A stretch of DNA of 23,107 bases from positions 1 to 23,107 of IMG/VR virus record IMGVR_UViG_3300047666_000509; one strand, written 5' to 3'. Below are positions 3,001 through 11,622 of this stretch, one piece after another. Made by a program: the position numbers and the translations under genes. The stretch's first letter is position 1, and every line of letters begins with the position of its first letter. The notes under the pieces were generated by a model. That model was not told where the DNA came from. It saw nothing but the letters and a program-made list of their open reading frames with translations, and ran no database searches. The stretch comes from a virus.

Positions 3001-3687
3001 TTAATAGTTAATAGTGATGTTGTTGATCTTACCTTGAGCAATTAAAGTTATTAGCGTCTTAGCCTCAAACTCTCCCACTCCATTGTTTTGCAAAGCCGTC
3101 AGTATGTCGCGATTAATGCCTCTTACATGCTCTTTATTTGCCAGTCGATTGGCCGCATCTAGCGCGATTGCTCTGTCAGTTGCCTCTTGTGTATTCTTGG
3201 CTGCTTGAGTTGCGCGATTAGCTGCCTCAACTCTTATGGCCTCGTCACGTTCAGCCTGCCCTTTCTCATACTCAAGTTTATCAGCCAGATAACTTTTATC
3301 TAACAGGATAGCAAATTCGTGGTCTAGCCCAATCTGAATATGCAATTCTTCCTGCTGCTTTTTCTCTTTAGCCAAGTCAAGTATGCGTTTTCTTTCTGTC
3401 GCAAAATCATCTATTAATAACGTGAGAGGTTCGTTTGCTTTAGCTAGAATCGAATCAATCTCATTAAATTCATTGCTAACTTGCAACGTGTAATCTTTGA
3501 CCTTTTTGATCCGTGAAGTGTTGAGAGCCTTTCTAATAGACTTTATATCTTCAGCTTGCCCTTTAACATACTTGCGCTGTTCTGCTATATTCATATCGAC
3601 ATACAGGCCGATATAATTTTCAGACTCTTTTGTAATTTCGGCTAACTTATCAGCAGTGGTTAGTTCAGTAAATATCGTTACATTCAT
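3001..3687 (-). CDS. Coiled-coil protein next to Erf
   Basis: A 228-residue protein that is almost entirely helical and rich in Glu, Lys, Ala and Gln from about residue 20 to 190, a long coiled coil. The last 35 residues (NRDILTALQNNGVGEFEAKTLITLIAQGKINNITINY) form a distinct small domain of a kind found at the end of phage coiled-coil proteins that neighbour single-strand annealing recombinases. Its start overlaps the Erf stop by ATGA, so the two are translationally coupled and probably partners in recombination. The biochemical role is not known to me; a DNA-end or nuclease-modulating role is possible. Confidence 0.7.
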   Translation of the reverse strand: MNVTIFTELTTADKLAEITKESENYIGLYVDMNIAEQRKYVKGQAEDIKSIRKALNTSRIKKVKDYTLQVSNEFNEIDSILAKANEPLTLLIDDFATERKRILDLAKEKKQQEELHIQIGLDHEFAILLDKSYLADKLEYEKGQAERDEAIRVEAANRATQAAKNTQEATDRAIALDAANRLANKEHVRGINRDILTALQNNGVGEFEAKTLITLIAQGKINNITINY

Positions 3688-4229
3688 ATCTTATTGCTCC
3701 TTAAATATGCCGCGCAAGCCTCAACGTCTTGCACGTCTTTGATTGATGCTAGGGTAGGCGTGAACGATTCGCAAACTTGTTGCAAAGTCCAGCCACACTC
3801 CCCCGCTACTGCAACTATGTCAATGCTAGACTTCTTTGCTGGCTTGGTTGCTTGGTTTCCGTCATCATCTTCTGAAGGTATACCAGCAATGGATTGCAAG
3901 CTGTATCGTCTTGCATAAGTAATGGCGCTACCAGCCGCTTGAGGGTCTTGTTTGACCATTGGCAACATTAACACGCTAGATATCCATTCGCCCGACTCGT
4001 GCATTAATATAGTCTCGACACCAACACAACCACTTTCAAACAATGGAAACTGTGAGTAGCTAAGCCCATTGTCAAAAAAAGGCCCTCTAACAGCATCAAC
4101 CACCGAGTTCATGTCTGCATATTTCTTCTTAAAGAATGGATTTGTTTCTTTCTTTTTAGCGCCCGACATTTCAGCCTGAGCTTTGTTTAATGCCGTGGCC
4201 AACTCTTTGATTGATTCACTCTTATTCAT
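3684..4229 (-). CDS. erf: ERF-family single-strand annealing recombinase
   Basis: A 181-residue ERF superfamily protein (P22 Erf type), which anneals complementary single strands and promotes RecA-independent recombination and genome circularisation. The diagnostic motifs are NPFFKKKYADMNSVVDAVRGP (residues 30-50), MLPMVKQDPQAAGSAITYARR (88-108) and YSLQSIAGIPSEDDDGN (109-125). A short C-terminal helical domain (about 135-181) follows. I chose the start at 4229 instead of the in-frame ATG 21 bases upstream, because it overlaps the stop of the preceding small gene as ATGAATAA, the same coupling seen elsewhere in the window. SSB and a nuclease lie in the same operon, giving a complete recombination module. 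Confidence 0.9.
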   Translation of the reverse strand: MNKSESIKELATALNKAQAEMSGAKKKETNPFFKKKYADMNSVVDAVRGPFFDNGLSYSQFPLFESGCVGVETILMHESGEWISSVLMLPMVKQDPQAAGSAITYARRYSLQSIAGIPSEDDDGNQATKPAKKSSIDIVAVAGECGWTLQQVCESFTPTLASIKDVQDVEACAAYLRSNKI

Positions 4230-4344
4230 CGTCAGCCGCCTCTTTTGCATACGCCTGTTGCGCTAAGGTTTTTAAATCATCAAATGATAATCTTCCCTGC
4301 CTAATCCAGATTTCCATCTGCTCAATTATTTGCTCTTTGCTCAT
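4222..4344 (-). CDS. Small hypothetical protein upstream of erf
   Basis: A 40-residue helical, acidic protein (MSKEQIIEQMEIWIRQGRLS ... AKEAADDE). It overlaps the upstream gene's stop by ATGA and its own stop overlaps the erf start as ATGAATAA, so it is well anchored in the operon. No family recognised. Confidence 0.6.
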   Translation of the reverse strand: MSKEQIIEQMEIWIRQGRLSFDDLKTLAQQAYAKEAADDE

Positions 4345-4992: not shown

Positions 4993-5005
4993 AACGAGAA
5001 ACACA

Positions 5006-5197
5006 ATGAATATATTGAAGTCAGTAAAAGTATCAAACGCAATGAATGGAACAACACAGGTTCAGTTAGCTGAATATTTAAAGTTTACACAGCCTTGGCT
5101 AGGTAAAATGCTAAAGGATAACAACCCAAAGCATATAGCTAAAATGGCTGAGTTTTACGACGTGGACACAAGCGCATTTATCGCAAGGGGTGAGTAA
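5006..5197 (+). CDS. Cro-like repressor
   Basis: A 63-residue protein with a helix-turn-helix: residues about 16-38 read TTQVQLAEYLKFTQPWLGKML, and the C-terminal part (KHIAKMAEFYDVDTSAFIARGE) completes a Cro-sized fold. As the first gene of the rightward operon, immediately behind a divergent promoter with repeated operator-like words, it holds the position of lambda Cro. It probably represses one or both early promoters. Its stop overlaps the next start as TAATG. Confidence 0.75.
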   Translation: MNILKSVKVSNAMNGTTQVQLAEYLKFTQPWLGKMLKDNNPKHIAKMAEFYDVDTSAFIARGE

Positions 5198-5517
5198 TGA
5201 ACAAACTAACTGATTTAGAAATATGTAAACGCCTTGCAGAAATTGAGGGGTTAGAATTTATTGTAAAAATGGACGTGTTTGGTTTTTCAGAATGTGTATT
5301 TGCCGATTCGGAAAATCATGCAGGATTAATACGTTACAACCCACTAACAGACGATGCCTTGTGTTTTAGGTTGATGATTAAATATAATGTGTCTTTTTGG
5401 CAAAATGAAGATAAAGGCATGTTTTGTGCAAAAGTTAGAGATCCTGAGTTTGGAGTTGTTAGAGTAAAGAAGCCGAATATTGCCATATGCCTAGCAATAA
5501 TTGCGTCTAAGGTGTAG
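5197..5517 (+). CDS. Phage ABA-sandwich domain protein
   Basis: A 106-residue protein recognised from the segment RYNPLTDDALCFRLMIKYNV (residues 46-65) and the C-terminal KKPNIAICLAIIASKV, which are typical of the phage ABA sandwich family (Phage_ABA_S), common in early regions of tailed phages. The biochemical role of this family is unknown to me. It is coupled to the Cro-like gene upstream (TAATG) and lies 2 bases before the next gene. Confidence 0.7.
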   Translation: MNKLTDLEICKRLAEIEGLEFIVKMDVFGFSECVFADSENHAGLIRYNPLTDDALCFRLMIKYNVSFWQNEDKGMFCAKVRDPEFGVVRVKKPNIAICLAIIASKV

Positions 5518-6710: not shown

Positions 6711-6898
6711 AACCAATTAAGTTCATGACAACCCCATTCAACCCTATTGCATACCACGACTTAAGCAATTACATGTCTGACATAGGCGAGCGCATAGGGT
6801 CAGCACCTAACCGTAGCTACATGCACCACATAAACCAGACTGGCTATACTCGTATAAGACAAACCAAAAGTTTAATTATAGTTGAGTGGATGGAATGA
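6707..6898 (+). CDS. Small hypothetical protein
   Basis: A 63-residue basic protein (MKPIKFMTTPFNPIAYHDLS ... IIVEWME). It overlaps the previous gene by ATGA. No motif recognised. Confidence 0.55.
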   Translation: MKPIKFMTTPFNPIAYHDLSNYMSDIGERIGSAPNRSYMHHINQTGYTRIRQTKSLIIVEWME

Positions 6899-6899
6899 T

Positions 6900-7094
6900 A
6901 TGGAGTTTACAATTTGCACCAAAGCAGCCTACTGCGACAGGAAAGGAGCCAAAAGGTTTCTACGCAAAAGAAGCCTGCAGTATAAACAGCGGACATATCG
7001 CTGCAATGTTTGCGGCTGGTATCACAACACATCATTGAACGCTGAAGAACGGCGATTAATTAAAGAATTTAACAGTGGAGAAAAAAACGAATGA
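6900..7094 (+). CDS. Small zinc-finger-like protein
   Basis: A 64-residue basic protein. Residues about 34-44 read YRCNVCGWYHNTS, a C-x2-C knuckle followed by His, with two more cysteines near the N-terminus (CTKAAYC) that could complete a zinc site. I chose the ATG at 6900 because the previous gene ends at 6898; a TTG at 6882 would add six residues. Small proteins of this form with a 'YRC..CG.WH.T' end are frequent in phage early regions. It may bind nucleic acid. Confidence 0.6.
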   Translation: MEFTICTKAAYCDRKGAKRFLRKRSLQYKQRTYRCNVCGWYHNTSLNAEERRLIKEFNSGEKNE

Positions 7095-7198
7095 AACCAA
7101 CTAAAACACAGGGCGAAATACAAGCCCATAAAGCTTTATTAACAATAGCTATATTTGCACTGATAGTTGTTAATGTTTATTTAGGGTGGGCATCATGA
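7091..7198 (+). CDS. Small single-span membrane protein
   Basis: A 35-residue protein with a soluble basic N-terminus (MKPTKTQGEIQAHK) and one membrane span (ALLTIAIFALIVVNVYLG). It overlaps both neighbours by ATGA. The charge pattern predicts the N-terminus in the cytoplasm. Function unknown. Confidence 0.55.
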   Translation: MKPTKTQGEIQAHKALLTIAIFALIVVNVYLGWAS

Positions 7199-7347
7199 GC
7201 GAGGCGTATTGGAAGGGCTATAATGACTTTAGAGTTGGAATTTATTCAACAGATGGATACTGTCACCCGTCGAGCCAAAAGGATGACTACAACAAGGGTC
7301 AGAATGATTCTGAAATGGATAAACAAAAAGGGTATGACGCAAGGTAA
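7195..7347 (+). CDS. Small hypothetical protein
   Basis: A 50-residue polar protein (MSEAYWKGYNDFRVGIYSTD ... DYNKGQNDSEMDKQKGYDAR) with two similar 'YxKGxxD' stretches at its ends, which may be an internal repeat. Overlaps the previous gene by ATGA. No family recognised. Confidence 0.5.
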   Translation: MSEAYWKGYNDFRVGIYSTDGYCHPSSQKDDYNKGQNDSEMDKQKGYDAR

Positions 7348-7392
7348 TTAATTAAACGTGATATCAATCTAAGTAATAACGGAGTAGATAAA

Positions 7393-7674
7393 ATGAAAGT
7401 TTTGGTAAATGGAAAGGTTCATGATGAGTCGGAACTTGTTGATGGCGTGTATTACAGGAAGCCCCTTAGAGCAATAAGAAAACTTCTAGTGCTAATTAAA
7501 ATAAAAGATAGAGAAATTGAAATAAAAGATAGCGAAATTGAAAGGCTAAAATTAACAGAAGCTTCTTTTGGTTTGCAGATTTGCGAAATATCCGAGCTTA
7601 GTCGCTCAGTAAATAAACTTACAGCGGAAAAAAGTAAATGGGCAAGAAATCATAAAAAGATGATATCAAACTAA
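7393..7674 (+). CDS. Hypothetical coiled-coil protein
   Basis: A 93-residue protein. The middle (about 33-55) is a heptad-like charged repeat, KIKDREIEIKDSEIERLKL, in which the 7-residue unit KDxEIEI is repeated at DNA level as well (aaaagatag.gaaattgaaa). The start has GGAG nine bases upstream. Last gene before the structured leader region. Function unknown. Confidence 0.6.
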   Translation: MKVLVNGKVHDESELVDGVYYRKPLRAIRKLLVLIKIKDREIEIKDSEIERLKLTEASFGLQICEISELSRSVNKLTAEKSKWARNHKKMISN

Positions 7675-7688
7675 AACAATAGTATAAT
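7660..7688 (+). promoter_or_regulatory. Promoter of the replication-gene leader
   Basis: A perfect -10 box TATAAT (7683-7688) with a weak -35 match ATGATA (7660-7665) at a 17-base spacing. The expected start near 7695 falls just before the first hairpin of the leader RNA described below, a placement that supports a real promoter. Confidence 0.5.
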
Positions 7689-7696
7689 ACTAAATG

Positions 7697-7794
7697 TGAA
7701 CTCCCCGTTCATAGTTATCTATCTGATACGCCCTGCTTGCTACCAACTTGCAGGGCACCTCCTTGGTAGGGATTTTCAGATAAATAATCAGATA
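7697..7794 (+). ncRNA. Candidate structured leader RNA with H-type pseudoknot
   Basis: This non-coding stretch holds a 5-bp hairpin (7697-7701 with 7707-7711), an outer stem TATCTG/CAGATA (7720-7725 with 7777-7782) and two interleaved 7-bp perfect helices: GCCCTGC/GCAGGGC (7730-7736 with 7750-7756) and CTACCAA/TTGGTAG (7740-7746 with 7763-7769). The order a-b-a'-b' with linkers of 3, 3 and 6 bases is sterically ideal for an H-type pseudoknot. It lies between a promoter and the replication gene start at 7812. I do not recognise a known riboswitch class; a cis-acting regulator is inferred. Confidence 0.6.
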
Positions 7795-7799
7795 AATAA
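7776..7799 (+). repeat. Tandem 12-bp duplication
   Basis: TCAGATAAATAA is repeated twice head to tail at 7776-7787 and 7788-7799, directly upstream of the ribosome site of the replication gene. Each copy contains CAGATA, so the outer stem strand at 7720-7725 can pair with either. Confidence 0.85.
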
Positions 7800-7811
7800 A
7801 TTAGGAAGATT

Positions 7812-8579
7812 ATGCATTACTACAAAAAAAATATCGGTGACTATCACAAAAAAGCTGGACGTTTATCCATCTTGCAACACGGTGCGTACAACCTATTAAT
7901 AGATTCGTGCTATGACCGTGAGTCTTTCCCAACGATTGATGAAGCTATTGATTGGGTTTGGGCTTCTTCAGAAGCTGAAGTTGACGCTGTAAAATTCGTT
8001 CTAAAAAAGTTTTTTCATGAGTCTGACGGCGTATATATACAGTCAAGAATTCAAGATGATTTGGAGAAATATCAGGCTAACAGTGTTACAAATAAACGCA
8101 TTGCTATTGAACGTGAAAGGAAGAGAAAGGAAACAGGGCGTGATGCAAATAGCACGAAGCGTGCTGGTGTCGTTAACGATTCGATTAACTTACCTGACGA
8201 AGCTACACCTAACTATAAACCATTAACTATAAACCAAGAACCATTAACTAATAACCAGTTAAAAGAAAAGACTACGCCAGTCAAGCTGGACTACTCAGTT
8301 TTGCAAATGACAGAACAGCAATCTAAAGATGTTGTTCGGATCAGGAGAAAAAACAAAGGTACGGCATTAACTCAATTAATCATCAACCAACTTGCTAAAC
8401 AATTCTTTCTAGCTGCTGAAAAGGGTTTTACGTTTGATGACTCATTAATTGAATGGGAAGTGCGCGGATGGAAATCATTTAAAGCTGAGTGGATGAAAAT
8501 AGACACCAGCGGCAACGGGCAATTCTCACACACCACCATGCAAAACATAGAAACCTTTAGAAACGTGGAGCTAGACTAA
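7812..8579 (+). CDS. DUF1376 replication initiation protein
   Basis: A 255-residue protein. Residues about 1-95 are a DUF1376 (YdaU-type) domain: HYYKKNIGDYHKKAGRLSIL, QHGAYNLLIDSCYDRESFPT and a winged-helix-like end KFVLKKFFHESDGVYIQSRI. A polar linker (100-165) leads to a C-terminal domain with WEVRGWKSFKAEWM. Proteins of this type take the place of lambda O in many phages and are thought to recognise the origin. A helicase-loader-like gene follows with an overlapping TAATG, as in an O-P pair. The ribosome site TTAGGAAG lies eight bases before the start and may be masked by the upstream RNA. The origin might lie inside the Lys/Asn-rich linker-coding DNA, where CCATTAACTA occurs at 8220-8229 and again at 8242-8251. 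Confidence 0.8.
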   Translation: MHYYKKNIGDYHKKAGRLSILQHGAYNLLIDSCYDRESFPTIDEAIDWVWASSEAEVDAVKFVLKKFFHESDGVYIQSRIQDDLEKYQANSVTNKRIAIERERKRKETGRDANSTKRAGVVNDSINLPDEATPNYKPLTINQEPLTNNQLKEKTTPVKLDYSVLQMTEQQSKDVVRIRRKNKGTALTQLIINQLAKQFFLAAEKGFTFDDSLIEWEVRGWKSFKAEWMKIDTSGNGQFSHTTMQNIETFRNVELD

Positions 8580-9139
8580 TGCAAAAATCAGATTCATTAA
8601 AATTCAAAGAGTTGCTAACAGGCGCAGGCGAAGAGTATAAAATTAAGTTCAGTGAAATTAGGTTACGCATGTGGTGGAAAATCTTAAATCAGTACACCAT
8701 CGAACAGGTTGAGGCTGGAATATACGCACACATGAGAGACCCAGATGCGGGTATGTTTGAATTAAAGACAGCTAGTATCATCAAGCATATTGACGGAACC
8801 AAAAAAGACAACACCGCCGACGAAGAATTTATAGCTCAAGCAGCTTGGTTGAGCATACCCAAAGCAATTGCTGGCTGCGGAGTCTATCGAGCGCCTAACT
8901 TTCATGACCCTATCACAGCGGCATGTGTAAGCGTTATGGGATGGAAGACACTATGCGCTATGACTGACAAAGATGCGGTTTGGAAGCAAAAAGAGTTCGT
9001 TGAGCATTACCAGAACTTCAGCAAGAAACCGTTTGACCAGCTACCAAATAACATTCAAGGGCTAGAATCCGTTAAGCAGCTTGAAAGTAATATGACAACG
9101 ATTTTAACTAAGTTAGAAAATTTAAAGGTAGAGAAATAA
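8579..9139 (+). CDS. Putative helicase loader / replication protein (lambda P analogue)
   Basis: A 186-residue protein with the pattern of phage replication proteins related to DUF6475: RMWWKILNQYTIEQVEAGIY (residues 30-49), HMRDPDAGMFELKTASIIKH, CGVYRAPNFHDPITAACVSV and a final coiled-coil tail. In its position behind a DUF1376 protein it would bring the host replicative helicase to the origin; no helicase gene is present in the window. It overlaps both neighbours (TAATG). The family link is by motif memory, the loader function by context. Confidence 0.65.
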   Translation: MQKSDSLKFKELLTGAGEEYKIKFSEIRLRMWWKILNQYTIEQVEAGIYAHMRDPDAGMFELKTASIIKHIDGTKKDNTADEEFIAQAAWLSIPKAIAGCGVYRAPNFHDPITAACVSVMGWKTLCAMTDKDAVWKQKEFVEHYQNFSKKPFDQLPNNIQGLESVKQLESNMTTILTKLENLKVEK

Positions 9140-9426
9140 TGAATCTTCCAAAATTATACAGGTCAGTTTACATAAAATTCAGCTCGTTAAGAAATGGCTT
9201 GGGCTGTGGTGGCGGTGTTATTTTTGATATTGATACGATGGTTATACAGCAATGCAGAAGGGTTAAAACCATAGGCGGTTGGAAGTGGCAAATGTGCAGT
9301 GTAGATAATCTTATGAAATGGGATTACATGGCTGAGACAGATCAGGAAGCTTTAGACGAATACACTGATGAAATAGAATTTGAAATGTCAGATTTTAAAT
9401 CATACATTTCTCAATTTAATTATTAA
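9139..9426 (+). CDS. Hypothetical phage protein
   Basis: A 95-residue acidic protein (MNLPKLYRSVYIKFSSLRNG ... DEYTDEIEFEMSDFKSYISQ) with a Gly-rich turn GLGCGGG. Its start is preceded by the recurrent junction AAAGGTAGAGAAATAATGA, an excellent ribosome site. No family recognised. Confidence 0.6.
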   Translation: MNLPKLYRSVYIKFSSLRNGLGCGGGVIFDIDTMVIQQCRRVKTIGGWKWQMCSVDNLMKWDYMAETDQEALDEYTDEIEFEMSDFKSYISQFNY

Positions 9427-9439
9427 AGGTGAATAAATA

Positions 9440-9646
9440 ATGAATAAGCAAAAGTTCTTTTACAACTACACTGCAAATAAAAAAAATGGATACGATAAGT
9501 TTTCTTACGGCATTATAACTGCAACGCCTGATGGTGATGGTGATATGGATTTAATTGATGAGATTTTTGAAAAGTTAAAATCTCTCGCCAAAGAAGACTT
9601 TCCTGACGCTGATAACATAAACATTACAGCATTCAATCGGGTGTAG
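9440..9646 (+). CDS. Small hypothetical phage protein
   Basis: A 68-residue protein (MNKQKFFYNYTANKKNGYDK ... DADNINITAFNRV). The pattern of an N-terminal 'FFYNYTA', a Gly-rich middle and a C-terminal 'INITAFNRV' resembles small beta-rich proteins seen in many phage early regions, function unknown. The ribosome site is in the junction AAAGGTGAATAAATAATGA. Confidence 0.6.
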   Translation: MNKQKFFYNYTANKKNGYDKFSYGIITATPDGDGDMDLIDEIFEKLKSLAKEDFPDADNINITAFNRV

Positions 9647-9680
9647 TAGCCAACACAAATAATTTAAAGGTAGAGAAATA

Positions 9681-9857
9681 ATGACTAAGCAAGAGGTGAT
9701 GAATTTAAATTTTGATCAACCAGTAAGCTACGCAGGTTTTGAAAATCTATCATTTAAAGGTAAGGATGAAAGGCACGTTTGGTTGATAGATAGTTTTGGC
9801 AATGAAAAACGTGTTTACATTGAACTTTTTATGAAGTATGGAAAGGTAGAGAAATAA
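9681..9857 (+). CDS. Small hypothetical protein
   Basis: A 58-residue protein (MTKQEVMNLNFDQPVSYAGF ... ERHVWLIDSFGNEKRVYIEL). It has the junction AAAGGTAGAGAAATAATGA both before its start and across its stop, so it is a single-gene cassette between two copies of that sequence; its last residues GKVEK are encoded by the second copy. The preceding helicase-loader gene also ends in KVEK for the same reason. Confidence 0.6.
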   Translation: MTKQEVMNLNFDQPVSYAGFENLSFKGKDERHVWLIDSFGNEKRVYIELFMKYGKVEK

Positions 9858-10273
9858 TGAATATTAAATTAGAAGATTTAAAAGCTGGGCAAAAAGTTTA
9901 CATTTGTGATTACCGTCAAGAGGATTTAAATAAAAAACCAATTAGAAATGTTCAGCCAATGCTGGTGCAAGTTGTTAGCAATGATGATTTACCAAAAAAT
10001 AAAACGGTTTATTACTCTGACGTACATTTTAGAATGATTAAAAATAAAGGCGAGGGGGTGACATCAAGAATTATTGCACCATTTGACAATACTGGATATC
10101 GATCCTACTCAGGTGTAATGCTTAATATTTTTGATAATTATGAAGAGTGTGCAGATTTATTTAAAGTGCAAATTGATGATGTTATTGAAAGGTTGGAACA
10201 TAAAAAAGAATTTGCTGTAATTGCTATACAACAAAGCATTGATGCAATGATCAAGTTAAAGGTGAATAAATAA
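9857..10273 (+). CDS. Hypothetical phage protein
   Basis: A 138-residue protein. The first 30 residues (LKAGQKVYICDYRQ) suggest a small beta barrel; residues 105-138 are helical. Its start overlaps the upstream stop (TAATG) within the recurrent junction, and its last residues KLKVNK come from the related junction AAAGGTGAATAAATAATGA. No family recognised. Confidence 0.65.
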   Translation: MNIKLEDLKAGQKVYICDYRQEDLNKKPIRNVQPMLVQVVSNDDLPKNKTVYYSDVHFRMIKNKGEGVTSRIIAPFDNTGYRSYSGVMLNIFDNYEECADLFKVQIDDVIERLEHKKEFAVIAIQQSIDAMIKLKVNK

Positions 10274-11031: not shown

Positions 11032-11060
11032 TTGACAGTATAGTCGCTGGTGTATATAAT
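11032..11060 (+). promoter_or_regulatory. Perfect-consensus sigma-70 promoter
   Basis: TTGACA (11032-11037) and TATAAT (11055-11060) separated by exactly 17 bases, a full consensus match that is rare in natural DNA. Transcription would start near 11067 and read the small-gene region up to the terminator at 13630-13656. Confidence 0.85.
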
Positions 11061-11107: not shown

Positions 11108-11338
11108 ATGACTACATTTACAGCAACTAACGGAATGTTTAGCTATGAAGTCCAAGTAACCAAAAGCGTAAACTCTAAGAAATTTAAATTAAGAAGTACT
11201 AGCAAGGATTCGTCTCTTTACTCTAATGATGAAGATTTTAAAAAAGATATGTTTTTGGATTTTGGTTACTACGAAGCAAAGGGATTAAGTGAGTCTGGCT
11301 TTACTAATCAACAAATAAATCAGATGTTCAATGAATAA
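11108..11338 (+). CDS. Small hypothetical protein behind strong promoter
   Basis: A 76-residue protein (MTTFTATNGMFSYEVQVTKS ... ESGFTNQQINQMFNE). The first half looks beta-rich, the second helical. It is the first gene behind the perfect promoter and so is probably made in large amounts. Its leader ends in GAGAATATTATG, a form shared with the second leader at 11.5 kb. Function unknown. Confidence 0.6.
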   Translation: MTTFTATNGMFSYEVQVTKSVNSKKFKLRSTSKDSSLYSNDEDFKKDMFLDFGYYEAKGLSESGFTNQQINQMFNE

Positions 11339-11375
11339 ATCAATAAAAAAATATGATGATTGGATAAACTCTTAA
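11331..11375 (+). CDS. Possible 14-residue peptide
   Basis: A mini-frame MNKSIKKYDDWINS starts in an ATGAATAA overlap with the preceding stop, the same coupling seen at erf and at 22.9 kb. It may be translated, but at this length it may equally be chance. Confidence 0.25.
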   Translation: MNKSIKKYDDWINS

Positions 11376-11622
11376 TCATTAAAAACTATTTGCTGCTTCA
11401 TTCGTGACGCGCGCCCTACATGATGGGATGGACGGTGTATAGTGGCTAGCTTAATTAACCGCCCCTTAACTGGGGCCAACTCAAACAACTACAGAGAATA
11501 TTATGGGTGAGGATGACTTTTGCGATTTTATAGGTTGATTCTTATTAAGCAGAGTTTTAATCATAACATCATCAGGAATCAAACAGCCCTTCGGGGCCAA
11601 TCACTAAAATCGGGAGATTAAA
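11376..11622 (+). promoter_or_regulatory. Leader region with a diverged copy of the 11-kb promoter leader
   Basis: No sizeable gene lies here. The part 11427-11505 (TGGAC, GTATAGTGGCTAG, then CAGAGAATATTATG) is a diverged copy of the promoter-leader at 11032-11110 (TTGACA, GTATAGTCGCTGG, then GAGAATATTATG). It includes a hairpin GCCCC-TTAACT-GGGGC (11461-11476) and opens an 11-residue frame MGEDDFCDFIG (11503-11538). A second hairpin GCCC-TTCG-GGGC (11586-11597), with a stable UUCG loop, lies upstream of the next gene's ribosome site. A full-strength promoter is not evident in the copy. Confidence 0.45.

Follow-up and report, generated by a model that had tools for sequence, protein, structure and literature searches.

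A predicted pseudoknot leader RNA before a DUF1376 replication gene of a virus, with a possible role in translational control

In front of a DUF1376 gene, the window (the whole 23,107-nucleotide stretch of viral DNA analyzed here, IMG/VR record IMGVR_UViG_3300047666_000509) carries a leader in which two perfect 7-bp helices interleave in the manner of an H-type pseudoknot. This feature is real and improbable by chance, and it is probably functional. We consider it likely that the region encodes a functional, structured leader acting in cis. The best overall explanation, which we hold with even confidence, is that the DUF1376 replication gene has a 5' leader RNA that acts in cis and would serve as a protein-nucleated translational operator; a mechanism like that of T4 gp32 in particular is proposed tentatively. 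The features are collected in Table 1.

Table 1. Features of the leader region and of class B leaders; positions are those of the window unless a locus label (L number) is given.
Feature	Position	Strand	Remarks
Promoter-like site ATGATA-17-TATAAT	7660-7688	+	TATAAT at 7683-7688; 10/12 consensus matches; expected start near 7695
13-bp palindrome TAGTATAATACTA	7680-7692		Around the -10 box; sole exact copy in the window
5' terminal hairpin	7695-7701/7707-7713	+	7 bp including one G-U
Outer stem	7720-7726/7776-7782	+	7 bp
Outer-stem 5' strand, TATCTGAT	7720-7727	+	
Pseudoknot stem 1	7730-7736 GCCCTGC/7750-7756 GCAGGGC	+	7 bp; exact complementarity
Pseudoknot stem 2	7740-7746 CTACCAA/7763-7769 TTGGTAG	+	7 bp; exact complementarity
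Pseudoknot loop 3, ACCTCC	7757-7762	+	Resembles the anti-Shine-Dalgarno of 16S rRNA
Competing nested hairpin UCCUU-GGU-AGGGA	7760-7772 (7760-7764/7768-7772)	+	Exclusive with stem 2
Two tandem copies of TCAGATAAATAA	7776-7787, 7788-7799	+	A+U-rich, UAAA repeats; alternative outer-stem 3' partners
Shine-Dalgarno core AGGA of the DUF1376 gene	7803-7806	+	At most partly paired in the nested ensemble
DUF1376 gene	7812-8579	+	PF07120, E 2e-21; PHROGs primosomal protein
Next gene of the unit, DUF6475 domain	8579-9139	+	
Class B leaders	L009 272-372; L092 1388-1488; L129 1389-1488; L192 590-690; L273 445-543; L303 471-568; L304 586-686		

Both pseudoknot helices lie in the sequence exactly as originally predicted, in the order a-b-a'-b' at 7730-7769 with loops of 3, 3, and 6 nt. 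An exhaustive search showed that this is the sole perfect 7 + 7 interleaved pair on the plus strand of the window, and shuffles of the whole window gave 0.1 such pairs per strand, even with looser loops. When 7695-7811 was shuffled 3000 times with dinucleotides preserved, no shuffle equaled the pseudoknot by a stacking-energy score, and the pseudoknot ranked first among 794 tiles from both strands; the predicted improbability of the interleaved helices was thus borne out. The nested fold alone (7695-7800) gave a z value of -4.15, and none of 200 shuffles was as good. The sequence elements, their improbability, and their position are shown directly, as is the tendency of this gene to have structured leaders; that the pseudoknot would form in the transcript, we infer.

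The 5' hairpin and the outer stem of the original prediction are both present, but each is 7 bp long rather than 5 and 6 bp, respectively, and the outer stem faces a rival pairing. Because TCAGATAAATAA is tandemly repeated at 7776-7799, this stem has two possible 3' partners, and the rival stem (8 bp, 7720-7727/7787-7794) is equally good. A third copy of the 12-mer, inverted and with one mismatch, is the outer-stem 5' strand itself; the three copies flank the GC-rich core, and close-together copies occur only here. The 42 nt from the pseudoknot to the start codon are 79% A+T and contain three UAAA motifs, running into AGGA and AUG, and just 0.7% of 42-nt windows of the phage have that many UAAA motifs. 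These A+U-rich repeats can pair with 7720-7727. Within the core, rough energies were about -18 kcal/mol for the pseudoknot, including the standard pseudoknot penalty, and -17.2 kcal/mol for stem 1 combined with the competing hairpin. These near-equal estimates suggest that the leader fold may be bistable.

Several other readings of the leader sequence were rejected. A terminator at 7760-7775 was ruled out because it has 5 bp and just four U, and no intrinsic terminator was found in the window leader. Sequestration of the Shine-Dalgarno sequence by the ACCUCC loop was dropped as the main mechanism because the two form only 4 bp (-4.2 kcal/mol). A small ORF over the leader (7696-7899, GTG start, no Shine-Dalgarno sequence) was likewise rejected, and the window leader showed no frame for a leader peptide that has a ribosome site.

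A transcript start near 7695 had been predicted from the TATAAT box. The box is present with ATGATA 17 nt upstream, and the leader structure begins at the very position expected from it, but promoter-like sites in the window DNA are no commoner than in shuffles. The palindrome TAGTATAATACTA is a possible repressor site. On the minus strand, a simple consensus scan of 7300-8000 gave no promoter-like site besides one whose end, at 7239, falls within coding sequence upstream. A perfect TTGACA-17-TATAAT was observed at 11032-11060, in a short gap before a gene at 11108. The gene downstream of the leader encodes a DUF1376 and PHROGs primosomal protein, and the description "replication initiator" is a reading of that annotation. 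The leader is not, as had been stated, the only sizeable gap of the early region; the gap at 11339-11622 is longer (284 nt) and is the largest there, and its part at 11395-11500 folds no better than shuffles.

Other copies of the leader were searched for by blastn, with DNA patterns (exact or gapped) in which one helix pair or the other was fixed, and with a single-sequence covariance model. No diverged homologue of the leader RNA turned up among 2.9 million viral contigs, in collections of phages and plasmids, or in 369 genomes (a sample only, of one class centered on an Acinetobacter genome). The sole other copy was in IMG/VR 3300047667_000841, where 3182 bases (window 6895-10076) are 100% identical DNA; there is therefore no covariation for the window pseudoknot. 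Upstream of 6895, only 5004-5200 of the window matches this contig (97.5%), with the DNA between unaligned, which marks a junction in the early region that arose by mosaicism or deletion. Three pattern matches beyond the identical contig were judged to be chance, as they lacked the second helix and one lay inside a reading frame, and blastn returned either nothing or A+T-rich chance matches only. The covariance model, calibrated with no second known member, gave no homologue in 52 sources (the window and 51 loci) or in the 369 genomes. In accordance with the original view that the RNA class was unfamiliar, Rfam cmscan of 7640-7830 gave no match to any family up to E = 10, and no model of the known riboswitch classes in Rfam 15 matched the leader. 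At the protein level, the window protein alone as a query against the genome contigs confirmed no relative, and an alignment as the query gave 15.

Structured leaders are the rule before DUF1376 genes that have a leader of at least 60 nt, and the window RNA fits this setting. The sequences before DUF1376 relatives gave 184 distinct leader regions for which the protein was usable, and in 76 of these the gene lies within 60 nt of the preceding gene and hence has no leader. The other 108 have a non-coding stretch of 60 nt or longer, and about 100 of them, the window's own included, are structured and mostly pseudoknotted. By sequence pattern, 84 leaders are int-alpA-like, and two further leaders of the 108 look like int-alpA variants; RF02996, the Rfam model of int-alpA, was searched in some of the leaders, and L026, L042, and L118 reached the gathering score, with the others tested below it. 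Class B (seven leaders, Table 1) combines several interleaved helices with an intrinsic terminator directly before DUF1376, or before another frame in L303, and is supported by strong covariation, since 22 of its 37 pairs differ on both sides, which none of 500 shuffles matched. In class C (L102 and L114), the hairpin loop is complementary to the loop of the following terminator (GGACTAG/CTAGTCC versus GAATCAG/CTGATTC), and the L022 leader has the same plan. Class E (L065 and L177) shows the int-alpA plan in different letters, and class F consists of L170, L193, and L039. Classes C, E, and F and L022, read by eye from one to three sequences each, have their structures in the last 100-170 nt before DUF1376, with pairing of a loop to a downstream strand. 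Representatives of classes B, C, E, and F and L022 had no Rfam matches. A TATAAT-like box, read by eye and unscored, precedes the structure in many relatives' leaders.

Among the int-alpA-like leaders, the pseudoknot loop matches the first downstream strand over at least 6 nt in 70% of cases (7% with shuffled downstream DNA) and a second strand near the Shine-Dalgarno sequence over at least 5 nt in 27% (1% shuffled), by a simple test that ignores relatedness among the leaders; L013, L027, L029, L064, and L071 are examples. That the loop matches a first downstream strand and, in part of the leaders, the Shine-Dalgarno region as well suggests that alternative pairing controls the initiation of translation. 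On this result, int-alpA RNA would seem to be a leader that acts in cis on translation and not an independent small RNA. On a quickly built protein tree in which near-copies inflate clustering, the leader types require 38 changes (minimum 8; shuffled 77), the seven class B rows require seven changes, and the window's leader type adjoins a leaderless relative (89% identity over 138 columns). Because the leader classes scatter over the tree, leaders appear to come and go as modules, and their distribution indicates that they are swapped. A broader hypothesis, to which we lean less than to its opposite, is that the DUF1376 leader is a hotspot exchanging unrelated pseudoknotted RNA classes as promoter-plus-RNA modules, all gating replication, with the window representing a further class marked by a pseudoknot and a duplicated outer-stem partner.

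The closest parallel in overall plan is the gene 32 operator of T4 and RB69, in which a pseudoknot acting as the nucleation site is followed by a less structured UUAAA/UAAA stretch that includes the ribosome-binding site (PMC535899, PMC3014915). The two share a phage replication message with a pseudoknot 5' of an A+U-rich UAAA stretch that reaches the ribosome-binding site; in the window, the pseudoknot is present as sequence capacity, and the stretch, with its three UAAA in 42 nt, may be either open or paired with 7720-7727. The likeness is one of plan, with no sequence similarity tested positive. The T4 operator controls the single-strand binding protein's own gene, whereas the window gene encodes a DUF1376 protein. 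The window has a longer first stem as well as an extra outer stem and a 5' hairpin, and its pseudoknot lies at -82 to -43, whereas the review puts the pseudoknot of the T4 operator no more than 67 nt before the start codon. The gene 32 comparison is thus an analogy and not a homology, as the gene is different and the repeats may be paired.

A protein-nucleated translational operator is proposed because the leader has no terminator and no strong Shine-Dalgarno sequestration, and its remaining plan is that of the gene 32 operator. Transcription would begin near 7695 from an early promoter at about 7660-7688, and the RNA would fold into the 5' hairpin and the H-type pseudoknot, optionally closed by the outer stem with either of the identical 3' repeats. 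The pseudoknot would be followed by the A+U-rich UAAA stretch leading into the ribosome-binding site. A protein could recognize the pseudoknot and spread along these repeats over the ribosome-binding site, controlling translation initiation in the way that T4 gp32 acts on its mRNA. The ligand, when present in excess over DNA, might be the DUF1376 protein itself or a single-strand binding protein of the phage; by name, the candidates would be the DUF1376 protein and the protein encoded at 1944-2501. We infer the transcript start, the ligand, and the direction of control in this scheme. The 1944-2501 protein (minus strand) has an acidic tail, DFDDDSQPPF, like single-strand binding proteins, and gave no match in Pfam, PHROGs, or solved structures; no single-strand binding protein of the window was confirmed by profile. 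Close by, at 3684-4250, is a gene for an ERF annealing protein. The original claim of a promoter-proximal pseudoknot leader before the replication gene draws good support from its anatomy, the chance tests, and the relatives' leaders. The points that count against the overall explanation are the lack of a diverged homologue, the near-equal nested fold, the possible pairing of the A+U-rich repeats, the different kind of gene that is controlled in T4, the lack of a profile match for a single-strand binding protein, and the non-significant promoter-like site.

The other known leaders resemble that of the window in part. The int-alpA and int-alpA-like RNAs likewise lie directly before DUF1376, often behind a -10-like box, and pair a hairpin loop with a strand further downstream. 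However, the second helix of the window lies inside the outer stem, whereas the int-alpA loop appears to pair beyond it, and the conserved int-alpA core letters CUAG, CGAAAAG, and CUG are absent from 7695-7811. Class B leaders share with the window interleaved helices directly before DUF1376 but are larger, with several such helices and an intrinsic terminator, and have no sequence in common with it. The repZ gene of ColIb-P9 is controlled by pseudoknot leaders (PMC12370729). Leaders of this PK-repZ type also place a pseudoknot in front of a replication gene, but in the window leader neither a leader peptide frame with its own ribosome site nor, by a simple consensus scan, an antisense promoter was seen, and there is no Rfam match.

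Other explanations fit the leader less well. The hairpin and the pseudoknot might protect the early message from decay or keep the ribosome site unpaired without sensing anything. In favor, the hairpin lies where the 5' end is presumed to be, and together with the stable pseudoknot it leaves the ribosome-binding site largely open; a simple hairpin would be enough for this, though, with no need for a second perfect helix or a duplicated outer partner. We regard simple stabilization as improbable. Slightly less probable still is a small-molecule riboswitch, in which binding of a metabolite or ion would shift the balance between the pseudoknot and the hairpin at 7760-7772 and alter ribosome access. 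H-type pseudoknots serve as compact aptamers, and near-equal estimated energies are expected of a switch, but no Rfam riboswitch matches, there is no terminator or strong Shine-Dalgarno pairing, and such classes are usually widespread with a conserved core, whereas the window RNA is an orphan.

Two further alternatives are, in our estimate, equally unlikely and fall below the riboswitch. The RNA could act in trans or be regulated by antisense RNA, its loops being antisense targets or antisense themselves that shut off replication, as in plasmid replication leaders and phage immunity RNAs. Class B and class C leaders do end in terminators right before the gene, like promoter-RNA-terminator units, and repZ of ColIb-P9 offers a precedent for a pseudoknot leader (PMC12370729); over the window leader, however, a simple consensus scan gave no minus-strand promoter-like site, and no terminator and no leader peptide frame preceded by a ribosome site were seen. 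Alternatively, the DNA itself could be the functional element, with the TCAGATAAATAA repeats (two in direct orientation and a third inverted, differing at one position) and the palindromes binding a repressor or a replication protein, perhaps as an origin, and RNA pairing being incidental. The three 12-mer copies around the GC-rich core, the palindrome over the -10 box, and the adjoining primosomal gene fit this explanation. Against it, these are the only copies set close together, two interleaved perfect helices would go unexplained, and relatives carry RNA-type leaders at the same place, with covariation in class B. A random inverted-repeat pair without a role is very improbable given 0 of 3000 shuffles and a position in a leader that usually holds structured RNA, even though the window RNA is a single sequence with no diverged homologue.

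Of these explanations, we favor the cis-acting translational operator. According to a 2010 review, the T4-type gene 32 pseudoknot may be the only viral example in translational autoregulation (PMC3014915). If phage DUF1376 genes routinely use exchangeable pseudoknot leaders, the control of phage DNA replication would include a widespread layer that has hardly been described. The int-alpA RNA, listed in Rfam as an sRNA gene, could then be assigned a likely cis-leader function, and several RNA classes would be open to covariation tests, with class B already well supported.
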